Assembly: GCF_000487995.2 (NCBI RefSeq)
Contig: NZ_CP097562.1
Location: 1,733,001 to 1,797,000 of the forward strand
Reading direction: 5' to 3'
Source: Mucispirillum schaedleri ASF457
GTDB lineage: Bacteria > Chrysiogenota > Deferribacteres > Deferribacterales > Mucispirillaceae
DNA length: 64,000 bases
Numbering within the stretch: position 1 is the stretch's first letter; each line of letters opens with the position of its first letter. Positions 16,350-58,652 of this stretch are shown here, piece by piece. Made by a program: the position numbers and the translations under genes. The notes beneath the pieces were generated by a model. That model worked only from the letters and a program-made list of their open reading frames with translations. It was not told where the DNA came from and made no database searches.

Positions 16350-16430
<81 letters not shown>

Positions 16431-16472
16431 TATACCTTATTAGTAGTTTGCTATTAATAAAGGGTTATTATT

Positions 16473-16560
16473 AACTAAAAGCAAATTTATAATTTTGTCG
16501 CAAATCTTTATAACTTCCTTGCTTTTAGTTTTAGATTTTACCCCCTATTTAATAGGGGGT
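16473..16560 (+). promoter_or_regulatory. Two-hairpin leader upstream of the second fusion gene
   Basis: AACTAAAAGCAA (16473-16484) pairs with TTGCTTTTAGTT (16519-16530), and ACCCCCTATT pairs with AATAGGGGGT (16540-16560). Layout and distance to the gene match 11788-11880 although the bases differ, so the pairing itself is conserved. Confidence 0.5.
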
Positions 16561-16606
16561 ATATCCAACACTACAATTTATCAATTATCTCTTTTGGTGG
16601 TTCTTT

Positions 16607-18222
16607 ATGGTAACCGCTGAAAGACGCCAAAAGCAAATCCGCTTTCACAGTGTAGATTTATATAATTCTATACAAATTCCAGTGCGTGATTATTTACTGG
16701 AATTGACGAAAGATTTAGAACTTGCCGTCCTGCTTAATCAGATGATATTTTCTAAAAAAGAATATATGACATTGAATGACATAAAACGGCTGTCATTAAA
16801 TGAGAAAACAAAACAGACTATTCGGGTTAAGCTGGAGCAGCTTATAGAATTTGGTTTAATAAAAAAGTATAAAAATAATAAGATTATATATAATCAAGAT
16901 TTATATACAGTATCTGACAGCATAATATCTGCCCCAGAAGATAATAAAATATTAGGAATAGTAGAGGGGAAAGACTTAAATTATGAATTTCACTATTTAA
17001 TGGCAATGATTATAAATAAATTTAGAACTTATGCATTAAGTGGCATAAATGAGCTAACTATATCAGTATATCAATTAAAAATAATGCTGGGTGTAAATAA
17101 CAGTGAAAGTTCTATCCGTAATGTTTTAAATCAGCTTGAAGAAGATAACTATATAACAATTGAAAACAGTAATAACATAAATACATATATTATTAATACA
17201 GATAAAATCATAAATAATTACAGCCTTGAAGATATAAAGAAATATACTGATGAACTGGTAAAATATTATGAAGAATATTTAAAACGAATGGCATATTATA
17301 TTTATAAAAACAGGTTGAAAAATCAAATCACTATTGACTATTATATTAAAAAACATTAGACAGATTTAAAAATATGATTAAAAAGATGTTTGAAACTGGT
17401 AAAGCTGATTATTATATATTAAAGCATATAATAATCTACTTAATCCATAATATAGATTTAGAGAAATATACAAATCCAAGTGCTATCAAAAAAGAATATA
17501 ATGAGCTGGCGGAATTATCAAAAGATTTATCTAAAAGAAAGGCTAAACGGTTTATATATAAATTTCAAAATAACTTACTTAATGAAGAAAGCTGTAAGGC
17601 ATTAAATAAAATCTACTGGGAAGAAGCATATAAATTAATAGATAACTATAAAAATATATTTCGTTTAAAATATTTTGAAAGCAGGGCAGGTGTTAATTTA
17701 ATAGATTTTGAAGACTACAAGCAGGAAGCAGTTTATACTGTATATAAAACATTAAAAAAATATAATATTATTGATATAAACGATAATACAAAATATGATG
17801 CAGAATTTTTATTAAGTGCAATATTATACAGATTAAAAGAGAAAATGTTTAACAACAGGGAAACCGTAGAAACAGAAGAAAATAAACGAACAATAGTGAA
17901 ATATTCAACAGATATAAGTAATTTAAATTTATCAGCCTATTTAAATAACGAAGAGCAGGAACAAGAGCAGGTAGAAATAGATTTTGATACAAATACAGGC
18001 ATAAATAAACTTTTTAGTATATTGAATGAAAGAAGTATATTTATAATAAAAAAATATACAGGTTATGACGGTCAGACTTTAACATTTAAAGAAATAGGGG
18101 AAAAGTTAGGCATAACAGAAAGTATTACAGCAAGAATATATAAAAGAGCTATCCAGCAATTACGGCAGCACTTCCCGCCCGATAAAGAGCAGGAATTAAG
18201 GCAGTTGATTTTTAAGACTTAA
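16607..18222 (+). pseudogene. Frameshifted winged-helix/sigma-like gene of the second element
   Basis: Residues 1-250 (16607-17359) match the first half of the protein at 10185-11741. The rest (17374-18222) continues in another frame with the shared LSKRKAKRFIYKFQNNLL, the region-2-like DFEDYKQEAVYTVYKTL and the region-4-like LNERSIFIIKKYTGYDGQ and LTFKEIGEKLGITE. The frames join at a run of six A residues near 17350, where one base more or less, or a -1 slip, restores the reading: AAA ACA TTA GAC AGA gives KTLDR. It could be a decayed gene, a slippage-dependent gene or a sequencing error. All other motifs are intact, so loss was recent if real. Confidence 0.7.
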
Positions 18223-18727
18223 CCGCTGATGAAACACCAAACAGCATAACCAGAATAACCAAAACATCCCAAACAATATAATACTATCTACTCTTAAATT
18301 AATCAAAAATAACGATATACCAGGAAAATTTAAATTATAAATTTTATTCCTGGTGTATTATGTAAAAATTGTGTAGAAAGCTGGCACCAAAGAAAGAAAA
18401 TAATTTTTTATTTGGTGTTTTTTTATATCAGCAGTTCGCAAAAATTCATACACTACTCGCAATTTCTAATACACTCTATATAAAGAATATATAAAAATAA
18501 AGGTATTATATATTTATTATATATATATTTATAACGCCAAAGAAAAAAAGAAGGAATAATTTTTAAAAATAAAAAAAAGAGTATATCACACATTCAAGTT
18601 TTATGATGTATGATAGTTAAGATTATCTTTAATACTGCATATATGATTATTTGCTGGCAGATGTTTTTTAAAATGTATAGTAGATAATCTTTAAAATTTA
18701 AAATGATATATAGCAGATGTAAATATT
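18223..18727. other. Candidate origin region of the second element
   Basis: Non-coding and AT-rich, in mirror arrangement to 9660-10184. Positions 18313-18362 form a long inverted repeat: ATACCAGGAA, an A/T-rich interior, then TTCCTGGTGTAT. In the first element one arm is decayed. TTGTGTAGAAA and TTCGCAAAAATTCATACAC are shared with the first element on the opposite strand. Confidence 0.45.
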
Positions 18728-18979
18728 TTAAATAAAGCTAGACAGTTTAAGCAGAGTAGAATTTTTGACCGCTTCTGTTATAATGTTATCCTGCATAACA
18801 TTAATAGTTTCTACATTTAAGGCTTTAAATTTTGCAAAGCTGGCGTTTACCTGGTCAGTATCTATTGCCATATAATCCTGTTTTAGATAATCTTTTAAAT
18901 ACTGTGTAATAAAGGTTGATACTGTTGTTTTTCCTACTCCACCCTTTCCTTGTAAGATAAAATGAAAATTTTTTCTCAT
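18728..18979 (-). pseudogene. Truncated traL
   Basis: The first 70 or so residues match TraL: NFHFILQGKGGVGKTT at about 4-19, then IDTDQVNASFAKFKALNVE. The frame then passes straight into sequence corresponding to the non-coding block after the first-element traL terminator (GCGGTCAAAAATTCTAC) and ends KLSSFI, 83 aa. About 190 codons of the ATPase and the terminator are therefore deleted. A ribosome site GGAG precedes the ATG, so a short P-loop peptide may still be made but cannot be a working ATPase. Transcribed convergently with the fusion gene, as in the first element. Confidence 0.8.
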
Positions 18980-19039
18980 TTCTGTTTCTCCTTTTAATAG
19001 TTATATTTTAAGTATTTTATACTTAATTTGCATTTACTT

Positions 19040-19579
19040 TTATGTCGGTTTCCAAATAAACTCTTCTTTTAATTCCATTGATTTTGGTTGACTTTTTAAA
19101 TATTTAAAATATTCATTTAATGAGTTAAACCCTGCTTCTTTCCATTTTGGAATTTTGCCACTTGGCTTTTCATCCGCTGGAACATCTTTTTTAGTTTCTG
19201 CTTTTTCCTGCTCTTTTGGTTGTACTGGTTGCTCTGATTCCGAAATTTTAGCCGCTAAAATTTTCGGCTGTTCTATCTCTACTTTTTTCTCTGGTGTGGT
19301 GATACCTGCTTGACTGATTGCCTGCATTTGTTTTTTATATTCTGCTTCTGTTAGGTTATAAATGTATTTCTTTTTAAATTCTGAAATAAATTGACAAAAA
19401 TATTTATAATCAATATCTAATTGTGTTCTTTCAATAAATACTTCATATATATGTATATATCTTACTTTATCATTAAGAGCCTTTAATATATCATTTTTAT
19501 TTTTTTCTAAAAAACTTCTTAATATATTATATTTATTTTTACTAATTAGCTCGTCATATAAACTTTGTTCTTTTTTCAT
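19040..19579 (-). CDS. traK: TraK-like oriT-binding protein of the second element
   Basis: Start at 19579 (179 aa, MKKEQSLYDELISKNKYN) with GGGAG nine bases upstream; an upstream in-frame ATG at 19621 lies within the promoter repeats. The N-terminal 85 residues align with the protein at 8150-8680 (SFLEKNKNDILKALNDKVRY). A charged proline/lysine linker includes QPKILAAKISE, encoded by a perfect KorB-type operator, and the end is EEFIWKPT. It lies divergent from traJ across oriT as in the first element. The gene looks intact although the adjacent traL is truncated, which fits retention of the oriT-recognition set only. Confidence 0.65.
   Translation of the reverse strand: MKKEQSLYDELISKNKYNILRSFLEKNKNDILKALNDKVRYIHIYEVFIERTQLDIDYKYFCQFISEFKKKYIYNLTEAEYKKQMQAISQAGITTPEKKVEIEQPKILAAKISESEQPVQPKEQEKAETKKDVPADEKPSGKIPKWKEAGFNSLNEYFKYLKSQPKSMELKEEFIWKPT
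19243..19263. promoter_or_regulatory. KorB-type operator inside the second traK
   Basis: Perfect 10-bp arms; core TTTAGCCGCTAAA at 19247-19259. It sits at the same place in the gene as 8439-8459, encoding the same peptide. Confidence 0.7.
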
Positions 19580-19597
19580 ATCTATACTCCCTACTAG

Positions 19598-19704
19598 TAT
19601 ATACAGATACCAACTGAACATATTTATTGATATAAGTTAATAATCAAAAATTTTCATAAATATTTATATAATTATTACATAAGTTCAGTTGTTATCAGTA
19701 TATA
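19598..19704. promoter_or_regulatory. Inverted repeat pair between traK and oriT
   Basis: GTTCAGTTGTTATCAGTATA begins at 19683; a complementary 22-bp copy with two differences lies at 19598-19619, immediately upstream of traK. A similar AGTTCA...TTAGTATATA segment is at 8093-8115 before the first traK, and CAGACTGAACT occurs at 3146. These may be operators for transfer-gene promoters. Confidence 0.4.
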
Positions 19705-19751
19705 TCAGTAGCACAATATATATAATCAGCTTTTATCGGTTGCAATTTACA

Positions 19752-19781
19752 GGCAAGATGGGTGAATGTGGGCACATTCAC
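19752..19781 (-). other. oriT of the second element (IncP-type nic region)
   Basis: On the minus strand, GTGAATGTG, CC, CACATTCAC, then CCATCTTGCC: the same repeat-plus-nic design as 7956-7990, with nicking predicted between 19754 and 19753. The flank toward traJ (TTCGCATAAATGCTCT, then TTCTTTTGAAAAGAACGAAAG) is also nearly identical to the first oriT. Confidence 0.85.
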
Positions 19782-19855
19782 GGGAAACAATTCGCATAAA
19801 TGCTCTAGTTTTATCTTGGTTCTTTTGAAAAGAACGAAAGGGGGATATTTTTATT

Positions 19856-20197
19856 ATGAATAAAAAAGATAAGTGGTTTAAACTACGATTAACACCAGAA
19901 GAAAAAGAACTTTTAAAAAGCAAGGTTGAAAAAGTTGGGTATATTACACAGTCGGATTATATTCGCCGTTTAATTACAGATGTAGAAATACCCTGTTATT
20001 TAGACAAAGTTAAGTTAAATGATATTAGACGGCTTGCTGGTCTGCTGGGTAAAAATACAGGGCTTTTAAAAATGTATATTATGGAACTTGAAGAACCTAA
20101 TAAAAAAATGATTGATAAAATTATCAATAATAATGAGAAAATCAAAAAGGAAATAAGGCAAATATTGGAACAGATAAAAGCAAAATTTAATATATAA
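19856..20197 (+). CDS. traJ: TraJ-like oriT-binding protein of the second element
   Basis: A 113-residue protein beginning MNKKDKWFKLRLTPEEKELL, then SDYIRRLITDVEIP (ribbon-helix-helix), then the family motif DIRRLAGLLGKNTGLLKMYI. It resembles the first-element TraJ over its full length. GAACGAAAGGGGG supplies the ribosome site. Unlike the first element, no relaxase gene follows; instead there is a KorB-type operator and a toxin-antitoxin module. It probably marks oriT so that a relaxase supplied in trans can nick it. Confidence 0.85.
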   Translation: MNKKDKWFKLRLTPEEKELLKSKVEKVGYITQSDYIRRLITDVEIPCYLDKVKLNDIRRLAGLLGKNTGLLKMYIMELEEPNKKMIDKIINNNEKIKKEIRQILEQIKAKFNI

Positions 20198-20218
20198 AAA
20201 TTTTAGCGGCTAAAATTT
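20198..20218. promoter_or_regulatory. KorB-type operator after the second traJ
   Basis: Perfect 10-bp arms; core TTTAGCGGCTAAA at 20202-20214, directly after the traJ stop. The same traJ-end/operator junction is preserved in the relic at 38133-38257. Confidence 0.7.
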
Positions 20219-20233
20219 TATATAATTGCCTGT

Positions 20234-20252
20234 CTGCTTAATCGTTAAGCAG
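20234..20252. repeat. Conserved CTGCTTAA palindrome
   Basis: CTGCTTAA, three bases, TTAAGCAG. The relic at 38099-38117 keeps both arms with a different 3-base centre, so the palindrome is probably functional: a protein site or a terminator-like hairpin after traJ. Confidence 0.5.
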
Positions 20253-20401
20253 GTTGACATAAACATTTGAAAATACTAAAAAAGCATTGTGGATTATCTG
20301 GGGATAAGTATTTTAACTTGTAATTTTTTTATTTTTGGTGTTAAATACATACGGCACGGTGCGATTGATGGGATAGCCTACATCATAATGGAGGTAGGCT
20401 T

Positions 20402-20476
20402 ATGGTATATGAAAGCTGGATTATTCAAATAATCTTAGTAATCATAATTGCCAGCTTAATACAAAAGCTGAAATAA
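20402..20476 (+). CDS. Small hydrophobic peptide, candidate type I toxin (copy A)
   Basis: A 24-codon frame starting MVYESW and ending SLIQKLK, with a central run of about 14 hydrophobic residues and a basic end: the build of membrane-acting type I toxins such as Fst and TxpA. GGAGGT is seven bases before the ATG. AGCCTAC (20375-20381) can pair with GTAGGCT (20394-20400), partly hiding the ribosome site. Two related peptides occur at 37439-37516 and 37824-37901 with the same surroundings. A promoter TTGTAA/17/TTAAAT lies at 20318-20346. A converging RNA from 20566 shares its terminator. Toxicity is inferred from architecture and conservation only. Confidence 0.65.
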   Translation: MVYESWIIQIILVIIIASLIQKLK

Positions 20477-20481
20477 TCCAT

Positions 20482-20527
20482 AAAAAAAACCGTCTATATA
20501 TCGCAGTGTAGACGGTTATTTTTTTTA
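20482..20527. terminator. Bidirectional terminator of toxin-antitoxin module A
   Basis: AACCGTCTA pairs with TAGACGGTT, with eight A residues on the left and a T run on the right, so it can end transcription from both sides. Copies B and C have different stem bases but the same design. Confidence 0.75.
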
Positions 20528-20566
20528 AAACCAAAAACACGGGGCTATACATCAGTCCCCTGTGCT
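20484..20566 (-). ncRNA. Candidate antisense antitoxin RNA (copy A)
   Basis: A minus-strand promoter, TTGAAT (20601-20596), 17 bases, TATATT (20578-20573), is followed by GTAGCACAGGGGACTG, a GGGG/CCCC hairpin and the shared terminator. The same promoter spacing and 5' sequence occur in copies B and C. The 3' part is complementary to the toxin mRNA tail. The transcript start is estimated from the -10 box. Confidence 0.6.
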
Positions 20567-20673
20567 ACTCTTAATATAATCAATATTTTATATAAATTCA
20601 AGTCTTTTTTTACTTACACCATATAAAAAATAATACTTCTTGGCAATTCTTTTGCTTATTCTACAACTACAAA

Positions 20674-20694
20674 ATATTTTAGTGGCTAAAATTT
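20674..20694. promoter_or_regulatory. Degenerate KorB-type site before the integrase gene
   Basis: Core TTTAGTGGCTAAA at 20678-20690, one base from the 13-bp consensus; the left arm is otherwise imperfect. It ends 24 bp before the integrase start, so it may control integration. Confidence 0.45.
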
Positions 20695-20718
20695 ATATTA
20701 TTTTTTGGAGTATTAATT

Positions 20719-21615
20719 ATGGATAGTTTAGAAGCATTACAGCAAATAAATATTTTATCATCTGCAATTTTATCAAATTTTAATTCTATTACATTAAAAG
20801 AGTATATAGAAGACTATTATATACCTTTTCAGAAAAACGCCAAAAAAGAAACAAATTACAGGCATATTTTAGGGCAGTTAAATATTATAGCAGGCTATGA
20901 TTTTACAGATAAGGCAATAAATGCAGTATCTGAAAATGATATAATAAACTTTTTTAATATTTTAAAAAGTGATAGGAATATTAAACAGGCAACACAAAAC
21001 CGTTACAGGTCATTATTAAATCATATCTTTAATACAGCGATTAAAGATAAAGTAGTTAATTACAACCCAGTAAAATATACTAAAAAATTCAAAGAAATAA
21101 GCAGGGACAGGGCTTTAAATAGTAGTGAAATAAAAGCACTATTGCAGGCTTGCAGTGATTCCAGGAATCAAGAATTATACTATATTGTCATGATTGCATT
21201 ATATACTGGTATGAGATACAGCAATATAGTAAATATGAAGAAATCAAATATTAAAGGTAATGTTTACCAGCTTGACGGTAACGAAACTAAATCAGGCAAA
21301 GGGCAGCTTATATATTTACATCAAGATTTAATGAATGAATTAAATAAGCATATGCAGGCTTATAATAGAGATAATATATTTATTACAAAAAGGGTCAAGC
21401 GGTCATTTAAAACAGCCTGTAATAAAGCAGGTATAGAAAATTTTAGATTCCACGATTTAAGGAGGACATTTGCAACTTTTTTACTGTATAATAATACTAA
21501 TATTAAAACTATTCAAAATATACTGGGGCATAGTTCTATTATGATGACAGAGAGATATTTAGCAAATGACAGCAAAAAAGAGCTTGACGCAATTAATAAA
21601 TTATGCTTTATTTAG
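20719..21615 (+). CDS. Tyrosine recombinase (integrase) of the tRNA-Asn element
   Basis: A 298-residue integrase. The N-terminal SAM-like DNA-binding domain (LKEYIEDYYIPFQK to about residue 115) is followed by the catalytic domain with ALYTGMRYSNIV (first Arg), FHDLRRTFATFLL (His and second Arg), ILGHSS (His) and MTERYL (catalytic Tyr, near residue 285). It lies 100 bp from the right attachment repeat, the usual place, and reads toward it. GGAG precedes the ATG. It should integrate and, with a helper, excise the element at tRNA-Asn. Length and motifs are normal, so it is probably active. The restriction-modification island beyond has no integrase of its own and may have depended on a related enzyme. 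Confidence 0.93.
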   Translation: MDSLEALQQINILSSAILSNFNSITLKEYIEDYYIPFQKNAKKETNYRHILGQLNIIAGYDFTDKAINAVSENDIINFFNILKSDRNIKQATQNRYRSLLNHIFNTAIKDKVVNYNPVKYTKKFKEISRDRALNSSEIKALLQACSDSRNQELYYIVMIALYTGMRYSNIVNMKKSNIKGNVYQLDGNETKSGKGQLIYLHQDLMNELNKHMQAYNRDNIFITKRVKRSFKTACNKAGIENFRFHDLRRTFATFLLYNNTNIKTIQNILGHSSIMMTERYLANDSKKELDAINKLCFI

Positions 21616-21717
21616 ATTGCGACAAAATGTAAGGAAGTAAACAATGATTTTTCCATAATATATTACTCAAACATAGTATAATAATCAAGGTATAAAAGCA
21701 GGTAATAGGCACATTGC

Positions 21718-21767
21718 CTGTTAATCACTGGGTCGGCGGTTCGAGCCCGTCTCGGGGAGCTTCTTTT
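21718..21767 (+). repeat. attR of the first tRNA-Asn island
   Basis: 50-bp direct repeat identical to 16381-16430. It is followed by a CTTGC-ATTA-GCAAG terminator and T run (21772-21793), which recurs at 24708-24728. No gene lies in 21616-22039 apart from this repeat and terminator. Confidence 0.9.
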
Positions 21768-22039
21768 AAGTCTTGCATTAGCAAGGTTTTTTTATGCCTG
21801 TATTTTAGATATTTTTCATTATAAATATTTTACACAAATCTAAACACTCAATTTAAAAATACTCTCACTTTTGTTATACAGAGTATCTGTAAATATATAT
21901 TTTTTTTTCATCTTAAATTATAGTGTATAAATCTATATAACAGGAACCTATAACAGTAATAACTATTTCCTGATTATAAAAATAAACTGTATCATTCTTT
22001 ATAATTATAATGCTATGATACTGTTGTTAAATTATTAGT

Positions 22040-23299
22040 TTACATTGAACATACTACTATATATTCATAATTCATTGTAGTAGCAGTTTTACCAGCTTTA
22101 TTTGTTGGCGAATTTCGCAGAGGCATTGTTTTATTTGTGAGTCTTCGTTTTATAGTTTCTATGTGTTTTAAACCATAATATTCAAATGTTTCAGCGATAA
22201 ATTTATCTGTTGGTAATTCAACTCCTTTAACTGTCCTATTACTTACTACAAAAAAAACTTTTCCATCTTTATTCATTACTCGTGAAAATTTTGCTATATC
22301 ATGTGCTAAATCGTAATAAAATGCCGATACTTCATATGCTCTTTTTACATCTTGCTTACTTATTTCTACTATATAATCTGCAATAATACCAGCATCATAC
22401 ATTTTTTTATTTTTATCAACTTTACCACCAAGCAATTGTTTATCAAGTTTTCTAGCTTCTTTAAAGCCCAACCACTCATTTATAAAAGTAGAAAATTGAC
22501 CATATGCAACAGTGGTTCTACTATCTCCATATGGTGGGGATGTTAGTATAATATCAAAACTAGGCTGCTGGTCACTAATAGTTTTATTATATATATTGTA
22601 GATTGGTTTTGTTTGCATAATCATTTGATGATAATAATTAAGATAATCATTTACTATTTTATTAAGATTTTTAATAAAAATAGAAACGCTATCAACAATA
22701 AATGAGTCTACATTTTTCATCCTAAATAATTTAAATTCGCTATTTCTAACATAGCTTACTTCTCTTAATGTTGTAGAAAATGCCAATAATACTAAATTTT
22801 TAATATTTATATCTATTATGACTTCATTTATTGTATAGTAAATAACTAATAAATCGTTTTGAACTTGTTTACTCAACCAATAATTGCGATTAGTTATATT
22901 TGCTAATGCTTGTTCTTGTATTGATATTCTTCCAACATTATACAATTTTATATTTACATTTAATTTTGAAATAAATGTATCTATGACAGAGTTTAATATA
23001 TGTTTATCAATATATGTAATTTTAGCCTGTGTAATCATAACAGCAAGTGGATTCAAATCATATCCAGTAAAATTAGATATACCATGATGAAGTCCAGAAA
23101 CAAAACTAGAACCACTACCACAATATGGATCAAGCATTTTGGCATCTTTAGATATATTGTAATCATTAAGCAACTTAATTCCTATCTGAGGTATCATTGT
23201 AGCTGGATATTTATGCAAATATGGATATAAAGAACTATACTTTTCTCCTATAAAATCATAATGAGAATCGTAATAGCATTTGTAGTTTAATGTATTCAT
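22040..23299 (-). CDS. Type II DNA methyltransferase (amino-methyltransferase)
   Basis: A 419-residue enzyme. The S-adenosylmethionine-binding motif LDPYCGSGSSFVSGL is near residue 57, and the catalytic motif TSPPYGDSRTT near residue 255. TSPPY is usual for N4-cytosine methyltransferases, though N6-adenine cannot be excluded. The order motif I then motif IV, widely separated, fits the beta class. Its start overlaps the endonuclease gene by 4 nt (ATGA), so the two are translated together, nuclease first. It should protect the host site of the partner. The target sequence cannot be read from the protein. The pair lies in a tRNA-flanked island, as expected for a transferred defence locus. Confidence 0.88.
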   Translation of the reverse strand: MNTLNYKCYYDSHYDFIGEKYSSLYPYLHKYPATMIPQIGIKLLNDYNISKDAKMLDPYCGSGSSFVSGLHHGISNFTGYDLNPLAVMITQAKITYIDKHILNSVIDTFISKLNVNIKLYNVGRISIQEQALANITNRNYWLSKQVQNDLLVIYYTINEVIIDINIKNLVLLAFSTTLREVSYVRNSEFKLFRMKNVDSFIVDSVSIFIKNLNKIVNDYLNYYHQMIMQTKPIYNIYNKTISDQQPSFDIILTSPPYGDSRTTVAYGQFSTFINEWLGFKEARKLDKQLLGGKVDKNKKMYDAGIIADYIVEISKQDVKRAYEVSAFYYDLAHDIAKFSRVMNKDGKVFFVVSNRTVKGVELPTDKFIAETFEYYGLKHIETIKRRLTNKTMPLRNSPTNKAGKTATTMNYEYIVVCSM

Positions 23300-24060
23300 A
23301 ACAATATTTCTCGTGTATAATCTATCAAATAGCTTAATGGTTTTATAAAATCACCAGTTTCAATATTTTTCCCAATAAAAGCACAATCAAAAAATTTAAA
23401 CATTCCTCTATGCTGCGGATTGTTGATTTCATCATAAAAGTTAATAGTAGCAAAACATACTACTGGATTAACTGGGGGATTATATTCTATATTATATCGT
23501 TCTTTTATATCTGATGCAGAATTAGCAATTTCCATCAATAGTTTCCACTTATATGTTTGTCCTGCTCTTTCTCTTAAAGATGTTTTAAGTGAAAGTATCA
23601 TACATTTCTTAAGAGATTCATCTTCATTTAAACTATATACAGCCAAATCCATATCTGGTTTTTGTGTCTCTTCTCCAACATTAATAGTAAACAATTCAGC
23701 ATTATTTGGGACACGCTTCTTATGAGATGTAATATAGATATTATCATCTATATTACCTACTTCCTTATTTTTCAGAAAAATCCAAACTATAGTGTTTGAA
23801 AATATTGAACCAACAACTGTTTTCGCTGCTTGTTTAGTATCTGAAATATAACCATTATCTTTTCGTTGCTGTATTATTGCCTCTACATCTTCTTTTGAAG
23901 TGATAACATATTCATATATATGATTGAATGAATTCTTAACAAATTCCTTTTTAGCATCTTGATTATCTGGTAACAAAGAATTGATTTTTTCAAGTATTGG
24001 TCTCATATAATATTTACTTTCAATTTCTTGAATATCTTTCAGTTCCATATTATTTAACAT
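23296..24060 (-). CDS. Type II restriction endonuclease, possibly BsaWI-like
   Basis: A 254-residue protein beside the methyltransferase. A PD-(D/E)XK core can be seen: KPDMDLAVYS (Asp), then ILSLKTSLRERAGQTYKW (the Lys of the K-T-S block). KTSLRERxxQ is typical of a group of type II enzymes including BsaWI, many of which cut at CCGG-cored sites; this is family knowledge and not proof of specificity. The N-terminal 70 residues are helical (YEYVITSKEDVEAIIQQRKDNG). The start may be 24060 or the in-frame ATG at 24048. No controller (C) protein is visible, so balance may come from the operon order and coupling. Confidence 0.75.
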   Translation of the reverse strand: MLNNMELKDIQEIESKYYMRPILEKINSLLPDNQDAKKEFVKNSFNHIYEYVITSKEDVEAIIQQRKDNGYISDTKQAAKTVVGSIFSNTIVWIFLKNKEVGNIDDNIYITSHKKRVPNNAELFTINVGEETQKPDMDLAVYSLNEDESLKKCMILSLKTSLRERAGQTYKWKLLMEIANSASDIKERYNIEYNPPVNPVVCFATINFYDEINNPQHRGMFKFFDCAFIGKNIETGDFIKPLSYLIDYTREILL

Positions 24061-24254
24061 GACACACCCATATATATAAAAATAAACTAATTTTTTGTAT
24101 ACTTTATACCAATATAATTATGCTTGATATAAATATATGCAGTATTATTATATAAATGGAGGCATTTTGCAAGAATTCTTTTTTGAAGTATATTATTAAT
24201 TTTTCATTTCTTCTTTTAAAATATTGAGAATTTTATCTATGATATTTTGAGTAT

Positions 24255-24680
24255 TTAGAAATTTAGGCAGTGTAAACATCTTTTTTTCCTGCCGTTTTTC
24301 ATAATCTTTAAAGTAAAAACACCCATTATCAGAATAACAAAAAGTATAATTATCATCTTCGTCATCAAAAAAGTCACTGGTGACTTTTTTATCTTATTCA
24401 ATGATATTTTATTATAAATCGCTCTTATAGTTGCTTCATTATGTAAAATTTTTATTATATCTGCCTGCTCTGCATTTTCTGCAACGATAATTGCCTGTTT
24501 TGCCTTTGTTTCTGACAACCTAATAAACTTTTTCATTATAAAATCTGCTTTTGAGCCATTGCCATATTTTTTCTCATAATATGGCAGAGCTTCTATTATT
24601 AACTTTATTAATATGCTGTTATCTATATTTCTTCTATGGAATTGTAATCTGTGTATATAATCACTGGGTCGGCGGTTCAA
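24255..24680 (-). pseudogene. Hypothetical membrane protein, probably cut at its 5' end by att
   Basis: The open frame runs back into the tRNA-derived repeat at 24658-24704, and the only upstream start is a TTG inside it, so the original start was probably lost at the recombination site. The readable protein has a helical part (IEALPYYEKKYGNGSKADFI, then AKQAIIVAENAEQADIIK) and one membrane segment (MIIILFVILIMGVF) near the C-terminus. I do not recognise it. A hairpin AAAAAGTCAC/GTGACTTTTT lies inside the gene at about 24371-24392. The next 190 bp toward the endonuclease contain nothing I can name. Confidence 0.4.
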
Positions 24681-24704
24681 GCCCGTCTTGGGGAGTTTCT
24701 TTTA
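24658..24704 (+). repeat. Outer att copy, diverged tRNA-Asn 3' end
   Basis: Aligns with 21722-21767 but has CAAGCC for CGAGCC, CTTGGGG for CTCGGGG and GAGTTT for GAGCTT, all transitions. It is followed by the same terminator (24708-24728). It is the displaced original tRNA 3' end, drifting since the first island entered. Confidence 0.85.
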
Positions 24705-24707
24705 AGC

Positions 24708-24728
24708 CTTGCATTAGCAAGTTTTTTT
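24708..24728 (+). terminator. Original tRNA-Asn terminator
   Basis: CTTGC, ATTA, GCAAG, then a run of seven T. A near copy follows the inner att at 21772. Confidence 0.7.
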
Positions 24729-26718: not shown

Positions 26719-26836
26719 TCATTTTGAGCCTGATTTTTACAGACAAAAAATCTAAATTATATATATTTCAGTAGTGTATAATATATTTAAATTGTATGCT
26801 TTTTAGATACTTCGCCTTTGGCTTAGTAAGACATGG
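26719..26836. repeat. Dispersed palindromic repeat, copy 1
   Basis: Starts TCATTTTGAGCCTGATTTTT, has AAAAATCTAAATTATATATA inside and ends TTTTTAGATACTTCGCCTTT then TAGTAAGACATG. The inner parts (AAATCTAAA and TTTAGATACTTCGCC) form an inverted repeat, so a transcript would fold as a long hairpin. An extension to about 26905 (GCAGGCTCAGGACGAG) recurs inverted near 34145-34222. Confidence 0.7.
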
Positions 26837-26945
26837 AAGCAGGCTCAGGACGAGCCGTCTGAAAGTAAGCGATAGGCGAACTTGTTTTGGCAGAGCATGA
26901 TTTAAAAAATTCACGGATGAATTTTTTAATATAAATTTATTAAGT

Positions 26946-27060
26946 TCATTTTGAGCCTGATATTAAAGGCGAAAAATCTAAATTATATATATTACAGTAG
27001 TGTATAATATATTTAAATTGTATACTTTTTAGATACTTCTCTTTTGGCTCAGTATGACAT
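26946..27060. repeat. Dispersed palindromic repeat, copy 2
   Basis: Same orientation as copy 1, with TCATTTTGAGCCTG at the start, GGCGAAAAATCTAAATTATA next and TTTAGATACTTCTCTTTTGG, TCAGTATGACAT at the end. The two copies plus their link fill the 460-bp gap between the membrane protein and the Rrf2 gene; nothing else is seen there. Confidence 0.7.
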
Positions 27061-27140
27061 GGAAACAGGCTCAATATAACCTTATTTTCTTTCTATATAA
27101 GCTGCTTATATGTATTAGTATAATTTTTTTGTAAATCCAA

Positions 27141-34079: not shown

Positions 34080-34222
34080 CTTTTAATTCCATCGCTACTT
34101 GCTTGGAAAGTCCTTGCTTCGCAGAAAACGCTCCCCCTGTATTTTTTAAATTACGCTCTGCCGAAGCAGGTTTGGCTATCGCTCACTTTCAGATGTCTCG
34201 TCCTGAGCCTGCTTCACTGCCA
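34080..34222. repeat. Longer dispersed repeat segment
   Basis: TCGTCCTGAGCCTGCTTC, TGGCTATCGCTCACTTTCAG and ACGCTCTGCCGAAGC match, inverted, the segment after repeat copy 1 (about 26836-26905). Upstream, GTCATACTGAGCTTTAAAGG at 34013 is a broken copy of the palindromic repeat. No gene is seen in 33967-34681. Confidence 0.5.
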
Positions 34223-34339
34223 TACTGAGCTTGATTTATAAGCGAAGTATCTAAACAACTAGATACTTTAAATATATTATGCACTGCTGCAATACATATA
34301 ATTTAGATTTTTCGCCTGTAAAATCAGGCTCAAAATGAC
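34219..34339. repeat. Dispersed palindromic repeat, copy 3
   Basis: Opposite orientation to copies 1 and 2: CATACTGAGCTTGATTTATA, AGCGAAGTATCTAAA, ATTATGCACTGCTGCAATAC, ATTTAGATTTTTCGCCTG, CAGGCTCAAAATGAC. Confidence 0.7.
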
Positions 34340-37118: not shown

Positions 37119-37368
37119 GTAATAGTTATGTGATTATATTTATTATGTTATTATGAATATAGCTAATAATATATTAAGTTTAAATACTTTGCCATTATAT
37201 AGCTTTAAATGATTAGATATGGTTAGAGTAGTAATAATTAAGTTTCCAGACTTATCAAAAATTTTGGAAATTGTAGAATAAGCAAAATAACTTCCAGTAA
37301 GAAATATTTTTATACTGTATTATAAAAAAGGACTTGCAGAAATTATATTCTTTAAGTATATTAAAGGC

Positions 37369-37449
37369 ACGGGAAGGCTGGACTGATCAGCCCCCGATTC
37401 TGGTTAAAAATAACCGTTCATCTTTGGTAGTTGGGCGGTTATTTTTTTA
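37369..37449 (+). ncRNA. Candidate antisense antitoxin RNA (copy B)
   Basis: The promoter TTGCAG (37334-37339), 17 bases, TATATT (37357-37362) leads to an RNA beginning near GCACGGGAAGG, with a CTGGACTGATCAGCC hairpin and a terminator stem AAAATAACCG/CGGTTATTTT. It converges on the peptide gene at 37439-37516 and overlaps its 3' end. Confidence 0.6.
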
Positions 37450-37516
37450 TATAAAATAAAATTATGCTTTCAAGTATTATAAAGATTATATACAAATGAT
37501 ATACTTCTGTTACCAT
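37439..37516 (-). CDS. Small hydrophobic peptide, candidate type I toxin (copy B)
   Basis: A 25-codon frame, MVTEVYHLY at the start and ILFYIKK at the end, with a hydrophobic middle of about 14 residues. The ribosome site AAGGAGGT is exactly paired with CCTCCTT in a 7-bp stem with a 3-base loop (37522-37538), so translation should need structure opening or processing. The promoter is TTGTAT, 18 bases, TATAAG on the minus strand at about 37567-37596. Related to copies A and C by its surroundings more than by residues, though the ends FYIKK are shared with C. Confidence 0.65.
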   Translation of the reverse strand: MVTEVYHLYIIFIILESIILFYIKK

Positions 37517-37735
37517 AAGCACCTCCTTTCTAAGGAGGCTACCAGCCACAGCCAAACCGTGCTTATATCTTATAACACCAAAAAATAAAAAAATACAAGT
37601 AAAAATACTTATTTAACTTACCAAAAAATTTTAGGAATTGTAGAATAAGTAAAAGGACTGCCAATAAGAAATATTTTTATATGGTGTAGTAAAAAAGAAC
37701 TTGCAGAAATGGCATTTTTTGATTATATTAGAAGT

Positions 37736-37834
37736 AGCACAGGGGACTGGTATGGTCAGCCCCTTAGTGTGAGATTTTAAAGAAATATCTTAAAATAACC
37801 ACCTGCTGGGCAAAACAAGGTGGTTATTTTTTTA
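37736..37834 (+). ncRNA. Candidate antisense antitoxin RNA (copy C)
   Basis: The promoter TTGCAG (37701-37706), 17 bases, TATATT (37724-37729) leads to GTAGCACAGGGGACTGG, nearly identical to copy A, then a CAGCCCC hairpin and the terminator AAAATAACCACC/GGTGGTTATTTT. It overlaps the 3' end of the peptide gene at 37824. Confidence 0.6.
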
Positions 37835-37901
37835 TGTAAAAAATTATGGTTGCCGTTACCAGCACACATAATGCAAATGTGATATGATTTTCATATACCA
37901 T
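37824..37901 (-). CDS. Small hydrophobic peptide, candidate type I toxin (copy C)
   Basis: A 25-codon frame starting MVYEN, as copy A, with the hydrophobic stretch FALCVLVTATIIF and the end YIKK. GGGGGTGG before the ATG is a weaker ribosome site. The upstream region (TACTTGTATTTTTTTA, then TTTTTGGTGTTT) is shared with copies A and B and contains the predicted promoter. Directly upstream lies the remnant of a traJ gene and its operator, in the same order as copy A, so this module belongs to an old copy of the element. Confidence 0.65.
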   Translation of the reverse strand: MVYENHITFALCVLVTATIIFYIKK

Positions 37902-38132
37902 AAGCCACCCCCTTACTTATTCCGAATGGTTAATCCTAATGGATAAAAAGAAAGGTAGCCAACCACCAGCCCGCACTGTGCTATTAGGCTTAAAGCCTAG
38001 ATAGAATAAACACCAAAAAGTAAAAAAATACAAGTAAAAATACTTATCCCCAGATAATCCACAATGTTTTTTTAGTATTTTCAAGTATTTATGTTGAGCT
38101 GCTTAATGATTAAGCAGTCAAGCAGATATATA

Positions 38133-41642: not shown

Positions 41643-41765
41643 ATGTTGTGGTTTGAATATTTTATCAGTTTTATTTATCTTTAATTTTTTATTTACTAAA
41701 ATATTTAATAACAGGCATAGTTTTTTTGAAAGATTAATATATGTCTTCCTGAGCATGCTCCCGTG

Positions 41766-41888
41766 TCTTACTGAGCTTGACTTATAAGCGAAGTATCTAA
41801 AAAAATAAGATATTTTAAGTATATTATGCACTGCTGCAATATATATAATGCTAGATTTTTCGCCTTTAAAAATCAGGCTCAAAATGAC
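41766..41888. repeat. Dispersed palindromic repeat, copy 4
   Basis: TCTTACTGAGCTTGACTTAT, AGCGAAGTATCTAAA, ATTATGCACTGCTGCAATAT, TAGATTTTTCGCCTTT, CAGGCTCAAAATGAC; same orientation as copy 3. It fills the gap between the GIY-YIG unit and fliR. Confidence 0.7.
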
Positions 41889-41939
41889 AGTAGTCTAAGT
41901 TTTTCGGATAAGTCCAGATATATAATTATTACAGCATAA

Positions 41940-58490: not shown

Positions 58491-58610
58491 TGTTATACTG
58501 AGCCTAAAAGGCGAAGTATCTAAAAAAGCATATAACTTAAATGTATTATACATCACTGTAATATAAATAATTTAGATTTTTCGCCTTTAAAAAATCAGGC
58601 TCAAAATGAC
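58491..58610. repeat. Dispersed palindromic repeat, copy 5
   Basis: TGTTATACTGAGCCTAAAAG, GCGAAGTATCTAAA, then ATTTAGATTTTTCGCCTTTA, CAGGCTCAAAATGAC; same orientation as copies 3 and 4. Confidence 0.7.
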
Positions 58611-58652
58611 TTAATTGTAATATTTTTATTTTTCAGCGTTTCCACAGCACAA

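Follow-up and report, generated by a model that had tools for sequence, protein, structure and literature searches.

Several type I toxin-antitoxin systems resemble the modules described here in part. AapA of Helicobacter is, like the peptides of our modules, about 30 amino acids long or less with a K/R end, but its antitoxin, IsoA, sits opposite the 5' part of the mRNA, unlike ours. The Lys-Arg end of AapA is recorded in the part of PMC10537873 that we drew on. Convergent promoters, a bidirectional terminator and a small hydrophobic peptide link our modules to the par locus of pAD1 (Fst, RNA I / RNA II) and the Fst/Ldr superfamily, as do a Shine-Dalgarno (SD) sequence masked by a 5' stem-loop and a frequent location on mobile DNA (PMC7472228, in the sections available to us). 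According to the same sections, direct repeats provide the second contact between the two Fst RNAs, and some Fst homologs also do without the U-turn (PMC7472228). TxpA/RatA and the prophage type I pairs of C. difficile share with our modules a convergent antitoxin that overlaps at the 3' end, a place on prophage or other mobile DNA, and a 3' duplex (PMC8167048, PMC7699646); silencing by RatA goes through the 3' overlap, as far as the review sections at hand describe it. The toxins of these pairs have 34 amino acids or more, and no mirrored leader is mentioned in the portions of the two sources used for this comparison, which is one by description (PMC8167048, PMC7699646). SprA1/SprA1AS and SprA2/SprA2AS likewise have overlapping 3' ends but are regulated via their 5' ends, by what the consulted part of PMC8167048 presents as partial complementarity, whereas the 5' ends of our modules are alike instead. 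Among open-licence papers, we found no type I system described in Mucispirillum and no description of these modules; the main text of the genome paper (PMC5285517) does not contain the word "antitoxin".

The window analyzed here is a stretch of 64,000 nucleotides from Mucispirillum schaedleri ASF457, and positions refer to it unless a contig is named. The segment 20318-20604, copy A, carries a promoter-like site, a masked SD, a 24-codon hydrophobic ORF, a terminator-like hairpin and a facing promoter (Table 1). The original prediction of a 24-residue hydrophobic peptide with a hidden ribosome site is thus borne out by the sequence, where an AGCCUAC/GUAGGCU stem encloses the GGAGG, and so is the converging antisense RNA with a common terminator. 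In the window as a whole, SD-preceded ORFs of 18-32 codons numbered nine, five of them hydrophobic, with the peptides of copies A, B and C ranking 1, 2 and 3 by their best 15-residue hydrophobicity; ten 64-kb Markov sequences gave four hydrophobic ORFs altogether. The terminator-like stem at copy A was one found against 0.2 expected. A consensus sigma-70 scan of copy A was at chance level (3 found versus 3.3 expected), so the evidence for the promoters rests on their conservation, and all RNA start sites are predictions. TTGAAT-17-TATATT had been put forward as an antisense promoter conserved in three copies. TATATT does hold and, with the CTTG of the -35 element, is invariant in 12/12 aligned copies, but of the three copies A has TTGAAT, and B and C have TTGCAG. 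The 12 aligned antisense RNAs have a 5' hairpin and the terminator, and in 7 of the 18 base pairs of these stems both sides have changed in a compensatory way.

Table 1. Positions of module features and neighboring genes. Positions are those of the window, except for copies D and E, which are given on contig C1.
Feature	Position	Strand	Basis
NikA-like mobilisation protein, element of copy A	19856..20197	+	PF21983, E 6e-12
Toxin-mRNA promoter TTGTAA-17-TTAAAT, copy A, predicted	20318..20346	+	aligned with other copies
Toxin-mRNA leader block GCACGGTGCGATTGATGGGATAGCC, common to antisense RNA	20354..20378	+	leader comparison
Anti-SD arm AGCCTAC, pairs with 20394-20400	20375..20381	+	compensatory substitutions among A, S, B, I and G
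SD GGAGG (20390-20394) and masking arm GTAGGCT (20394-20400)	20390..20400	+	sequence
24-codon hydrophobic peptide MVYESWIIQIILVIIIASLIQKLK, putative toxin, copy A	20402..20476	+	ORF scan; codon pattern versus copy S
Shared bidirectional terminator stem, 12 pairs, terminator-like	20488..20517	both	hairpin scan; stem covariation
Antisense (antitoxin) RNA, copy A, predicted	20478..20570	-	conserved promoter; covariance models R1, R2
Antisense leader block GCACAGGGGACTGATGTATAGCC, resembles sense leader block	20543..20565	-	leader comparison
Antisense promoter TTGAAT-17-TATATT, copy A	20601..20573	-	conservation in aligned copies
Tyrosine integrase, element of copy A	20719..21615	+	PF00589, E 1e-26
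Copy B toxin mRNA, predicted; ORF 37901..37824 MVYENHITFALCVLVTATIIFYIKK	37789..38004	-	reading of sequence
Copy B antisense RNA, predicted	37731..37837	+	aligned copies
Copy C toxin mRNA, predicted; ORF 37516..37439 MVTEVYHLYIIFIILESIILFYIKK	37404..37568	-	reading of sequence
Copy C antisense RNA, predicted	37363..37452	+	aligned copies
Copy D	C1:517161-517536		own genome, BLAST
Copy E	C1:1471078-1471295		own genome, BLAST

Two general features of a type I pair are present in the sequence: a small hydrophobic, SD-preceded ORF and an antisense RNA gene whose predicted product is complementary, through the 3' overlap, to that of the toxin gene. Several copies share this anatomy, as had been proposed. 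BLAST against the own genome gave copies A-E, of which A, B and C lie in the window, B and C in tandem. With copy B DNA as the query, 9 of 59 genomes (own included) matched at E 0.001, 8 of them in the genus; a 29-base match in a genome of the same order (G044, E 9e-4) was read as chance. We then used covariance models of the antisense RNA: R1, from 12 copies, on 50 genomes of the phylum; R2, wider, from 16 copies, on 15 genomes of the family; and R3, from 7 copies of the divergent S/U/V/W/X/Y/Z group, on 15 and 45 genomes. This search of sampled genomes for the antisense core with a hydrophobic ORF, suggested in the original prediction, yielded at least 27 loci or remnants, in all 10 genomes of the genus: G000 (A, B, C, D, E, U, Z), G001 (G, Q), G002 (R), G003 (K, L), G004 (J, N, P, L093, L098), G005 (F, S, V, W), G006 (H, X), G007 (Y and the X-like L084), G008 (M, a remnant leader only) and G009 (I). 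By reading, 20 of the 27 are intact, R is doubtful, and six are decayed or stopless before the terminator (L, W, Z and M are broken; E and N have no stop codon ahead of it). R3, which was built without A, D, G and Q, recovers those four at E 2e-4 to 4e-3, and we therefore take all copies as one superfamily.

The count of 27 is a lower bound, since the weakest matches outside the genus and most weak matches inside it stayed unread. Inside the genus, weak matches at G001:C14, G003:C1 and G008:C25 were read and rejected. Among the matches listed for five genomes of the family's other genera and for further genomes of the order and phylum, no module was accepted. The weak matches rejected on reading were in G029 (two), G020, G014 (two), G044, G012 and G050. 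Five of these eight have no SD-preceded ORF of 15-45 codons upstream, and L048 (G014), L019 (G044) and L106 (G050) have one each, by eye not module ORFs. Still weaker matches (E 0.09 or more, among those listed) were in G010, G011 and G013, with further ones in G012 and G014. Neither copy B nor the G170 module described below matched anything in plasmid and phage collections, three exact patterns had no match in viral contigs, and in Rfam tRNA alone matched at gathering score.

Two findings lie outside the genus. An exact pattern of the GCACAGG type, run over species genomes, matched four contigs, three from Mucispirillum and one of 5.3 kb labeled Clostridiaceae (L061, CATLDI010000069.1). The latter carries copy T, near a TrbL/VirB6-like gene, and conjugation genes. 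Taken at its label, L061 would be a third lineage; it is probably mis-binned, or alternatively reflects a transfer. R2 was also run over 384 genomes, where only G170 and G050 matched outside the genus at E 1e-4 or better. G050 (E 8e-5) was rejected on reading. G170, from another phylum (E 1.2e-5 for one genome, such E-values being rough), carries a tandem pair of modules whose ORFs, MVIDLLSAYIYVCIARSVVSVILLIIFWIITRR and MTKDLLTLSIFIDVARSIVYVILLIIFWIITRR, are 33 codons long; by reading, each ORF is accompanied by an SD, a terminator and a convergent antisense RNA. It was the sole match by DNA search among the 100 genomes around it and the only R2 match at E 1e-4 in 185 genomes of its phylum. 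Judging from the sequences, homology with the Mucispirillum modules is likely and convergence possible.

The toxin mRNAs appear to be made with the ribosome site closed, a reading supported by covariation. The 5' arm of the SD helix is the end of the leader block. With arms picked by eye, A, S, B, I, G and L all have a fully paired helix (7/7) that lies one base from the ATG and shows compensatory changes at position 3 (CG, UA or UG), position 4 (CG, UA or UG) and position 5 (UA or AU). C and P (8/8 pairs) and Q (7/7) have SD helices 3-5 bases away; in D, J, T and E the two arms differ in length, and these copies were left out of the scoring. Across 19 modules, pairing of the sense leader with the SD window is better within a module than between modules (p 5e-5), and three sets with one module per type gave p 0.0004, 0.025 and 0.00015. 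Compared with shuffled leaders, SD accessibility is under the shuffle mean in 14/17 modules, seldom significantly in a single one. The 19 modules were drawn from 28 loci (the 27 plus T), leaving out near duplicates (F, H, K, L084, L093), incomplete copies (M, N, Z) and L098, which was found later and is in the 10-module set below.

The two RNAs of a module resemble each other, in the same orientation, over a leader block of 20-40 nt, and this block contains the anti-SD arm of the mRNA. Both RNAs had been expected to begin with GCACRG. The motif does start the shared block, but in B, D and E the block starts about 20-30 nt inside the predicted toxin RNA. We compared the first 55-60 nt of the antisense RNA with the toxin leader in 17 modules, counting how many of 400 dinucleotide shuffles reached the score. 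Same-orientation likeness was reached by 24 or fewer shuffles in 15 of the 17 (A 11, B 11, C 24, D 0, E 6, F 0, G 1, H 0, I 0, J 3, K 3, L 0, P 97, Q 0, R 47, S 1, T 8). The counts for complementary similarity were A 26, B 90, C 351, D 28, E 248, F 16, G 52, H 152, I 110, J 6, K 9, L 100, P 372, Q 197, R 270, S 218 and T 304, which is near chance. The leaders are thus alike rather than complementary, and the loop-loop contact through GCACRG that had been envisaged is rejected.

The block differs in sequence between modules, its types including GCACAGG.., GAACACAG.., GCACGCA.., TGCAGTCAG..GCGGTTAGCT, GTGCAGTTGGG..TTGCCT, GTGCAG.GTAAACTTA.. and TGCAGTTAGTGA. Cognate leaders are nevertheless more alike than randomly paired ones: p was 5e-5 for the 19 modules (the floor of 20,000 permutations) and again in each of three sets of nine modules, one per type. 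A second set of 10 modules including L098 gave p 2e-5, the cognate being the row maximum in 8/10. Complementarity of cognate versus random leaders gave p 0.05 for the 19 modules, 0.03 to 0.35 with one module per type and 0.036 in the 10-module set. We considered a cognate-specific leader duplex and set it aside: its energy gave p 0.002 for the 19 modules, against 0.01 to 0.13 when each type was represented by a single module. Leaders of near relatives cross-pair equally well. The G170 leaders, outside the discovery set, have inverted scores of 41 and 38, reached in 0/400 shuffles each, versus 64 and 255 of 400 for direct similarity. The parts that sense and antisense leaders have in common there are TAATAAC..TGCAGAGG..ATCGT..AAACGA..TTTGCTCCC, the last being the anti-SD arm.

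We regard it as probable, although some way from assured, that these loci form a family of type I toxin-antitoxin-like modules that stabilizes mobile elements in Mucispirillum-like bacteria, with an antitoxin acting in two ways. The peptide would enter the inner membrane and be toxic. The antisense RNA would silence the toxin mRNA through pairing of the complementary terminator hairpins and 3' ends, and it would also serve as a second, trans-acting copy of the RBS-masking leader of the mRNA, keeping ribosome entry blocked. On loss of the element, the less stable antisense RNA would decay first and the toxin mRNA would be translated. Since the terminator is common to both RNAs, these, if both are transcribed, are perfectly complementary over it and their 3' ends; this points to terminator-loop contact, duplex formation and RNase attack as the main silencing step, which is likely by analogy with the pairs covered in the consulted part of PMC8167048. 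For the other step, the data weakly suggest that the copied leader, with its second anti-SD arm, may keep the ribosome site closed in trans. The antisense leader pairs with the SD window in trans at p 0.007 and 0.03 for two windows over the 19 modules, but with one module per type p was 0.07 to 0.19, not significant, and against shuffles only B, F and I among 17 modules reached 20/400 or less. Its pairing to the sense leader's 5' half, at p 0.012 (0.008 to 0.16 when each type was represented once), is at least as strong, and co-folding placed contacts elsewhere, or little beyond the terminator, in G, H and I.

The strongest competing account, unlikely in our view but deserving real weight, holds that the leader repeat is a by-product of an inverted duplication of promoter and leader, its arms kept alike by template switching, with silencing through the 3' overlap only. 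It would explain why same-orientation identity extends to loops unable to pair, why identity in G170 starts in the -10 region (TAATAAC), and why leader complementarity is near chance. Against this, the arms are imperfect and the sense copy has a recurrent insertion, while the promoters differ. D and Q have two leader blocks common to both RNAs in swapped order, a pattern that one inverted duplication would not produce. The block also holds the SD-masking arm, which covaries with the SD.

As had been stated, the peptide family is not a recognized one: 11 peptides had no match at curated cut-offs in Pfam and NCBIfam, including the TxpA/RatA toxin family in Pfam, and nine had none in PADLOC. Up to E 10, NCBIfam returned Heimdall-CTERM at 0.083 and nothing else for the 11 peptides, Pfam gave sub-cut-off matches only (PET117, Lig_chan, DUF6341), and PHROGs gave two single-member matches of unknown function (E 0.013 and 0.057). 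A PDB match to photosystem I subunit XII (0.008 and 0.3) was read as generic membrane helices. Peptides of the genus have 23-26 codons and are hydrophobic, with largely kept ends (M-V/I-Y-E and ..I-K-K) and a middle that varies freely among hydrophobic residues. Differences between species at codon positions 1/2/3 were 1/0/5 for A-S, 0/1/3 for C-P and 6/2/9 for G-B, and most of 13 pairs had no third-position excess (D-J 4/2/2, D-B 5/3/3, E-D 4/3/5, G-I 10/3/7, B-T 1/4/3). On these patterns we take the ORF as translated, with a membrane segment that may be loosely constrained. Copies E (L003 1412-1475) and N (L022) have one A fewer ahead of the terminator, so that the stop codon is lost and the ORF enters the terminator, suggesting decay or a non-stop message; a remnant of a second toxin leader lies directly downstream of E (L003 1560-1660).

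The surroundings are those of mobile DNA. As originally placed, copy A sits on a tRNA-Asn element, between the NikA-like gene and the integrase, and the element spans from tRNA-Asn (16350-16423) to a partial tRNA copy at 21722. Within 16350-24728, tRNA-Asn has two partial 3' copies further along, at about 21722 and 24658, and on this sequence pattern the region is two elements inserted in tandem, the second with a BsaWI-like endonuclease and a methyltransferase-like gene. D and F, by reading, have NikA-like and integrase neighbors as in A; Q has an integrase. A type II/IV secretion ATPase-like gene and a ParA-like gene flank G and H, U lies beside a gene of the former kind and Z beside one of the latter. 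S, Y and L093 are beside tape-measure genes, X beside a tail completion/neck gene and V beside a head closure gene, contexts that, from gene content, are prophage morphogenesis regions. These five prophage-located copies (L045, L081, L083, L086, L093) are in an unusual place for a toxin-antitoxin module. An element of the NikA-integrase type without the module is present at L024 (G004:C3, around 1501-1547), where the gap ends in T-rich promoter tracts. Two other kinds of repeat occur in the window: a AAATTTTAGCSGCTAAAATTT-like palindrome recurs on mobile elements in seven copies (window 19243, 20198, 20674 and others), and intergenic interspersed repeats of about 80-110 nt with GCGAAGTATCTAAA occur at 26737-27073, 34188-34323, 41734-41904 and 58511-58626.

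That the ORF encodes a small membrane protein with a non-toxic function under antisense control we hold to be improbable. Our evidence is of sequence alone, and the free variation of the peptide middle would suit such a protein, but the spread of many divergent copies over different mobile elements, their frequent decay and their differences in presence or absence fit addiction modules.

We give still less credence to the view that these are plain modules of the Fst (par pAD1) type that occur in a new phylum, with direct repeats (DRa/DRb) that make the two RNAs complementary and pair at the toxin start. Convergent RNAs, a common terminator, a masked SD and a mobile location all match Fst (PMC7472228, in the sections available), and in sequence our modules do have the convergent promoters, the bidirectional terminator and an SD sequestered in a 5' stem-loop. 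As controls, six annotated Fst loci (from Lactobacillus, Lacticaseibacillus and Lactococcus) went through the same tests. In the start region (-40 to +25), direct repeats were found at the 5% level in four of the six controls (289, 0, 0, 0, 0 and 47 of 400 shuffles) but in 0/20 modules (18 from the genus or L061, two from G170; all at 57/400 or more). Inverted similarity between the 100 nt upstream of the start and the 140 nt downstream, also with 400 shuffles, gave 366, 74, 23, 193, 225 and 396 for the controls. For the modules it gave A 38, B 33, C 35, D 11, E 109, G 0, I 0, J 12, Q 2, R 11, S 0, T 49, U 21, V 29, W 44, X 0, Y 0, L098 3, and 0 and 0 for G170. At 5%, the leader inverted repeat is thus found in 10/18 family modules and 2/2 G170 modules versus 0/6 controls, although one control, from Lactococcus lactis (23/400), is closer to significance than 7/18 family modules in this wide-window test. 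The Fst/Ldr signature of PXXXG with a charged C-terminal tail is not seen, as reading the peptides gave no PXXXG; the Fst model had no match in the NCBIfam search of 11 peptides; and a YUNR U-turn is in the sense (RNA I) terminator loop of only 2/17. The original analogy with Fst (pAD1) therefore fails for the start-region direct repeats, for PXXXG and, in most copies, for the U-turn. Further differences from Fst/Ldr are the mirrored leader, the length of 23-26 amino acids in the genus, the short K/R end and the occurrence in other phyla. The repeat tests indicate an Fst-like layout without its defining second contact and with another feature in its place. Scarcely credible is a miniature transposable element with terminal inverted repeats: inverted repeats do flank the ORF and terminator and copies are scattered, but the antisense promoter, the most conserved stretch, is outside the inverted repeat, the empty site ends in the promoter T-tracts and not at the repeat, and no target duplications were seen by eye.

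We thus return to type I-like modules that would stabilize mobile elements. More tentatively, and at somewhat less than an even chance, they may be a distinct type I class that spans at least two phyla. In such a class, the antitoxin RNA would mimic the toxin leader through an inverted copy that co-evolves with it, and specificity would come from leader identity, not from complementarity outside the terminator. Antisense antitoxins are usually understood as complements of their targets. In these modules, what lies outside the terminator resembles the target leader in the same sense, and this likeness co-varies with its partner over nine sequence types. If the likeness is functional, it would be a new way of making an RNA antitoxin module-specific. 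The combination of an inverted leader repeat, a small hydrophobic ORF and a common terminator also offers a search signature for unrelated type I systems, and one such pair, in G170, has already been found in another phylum.
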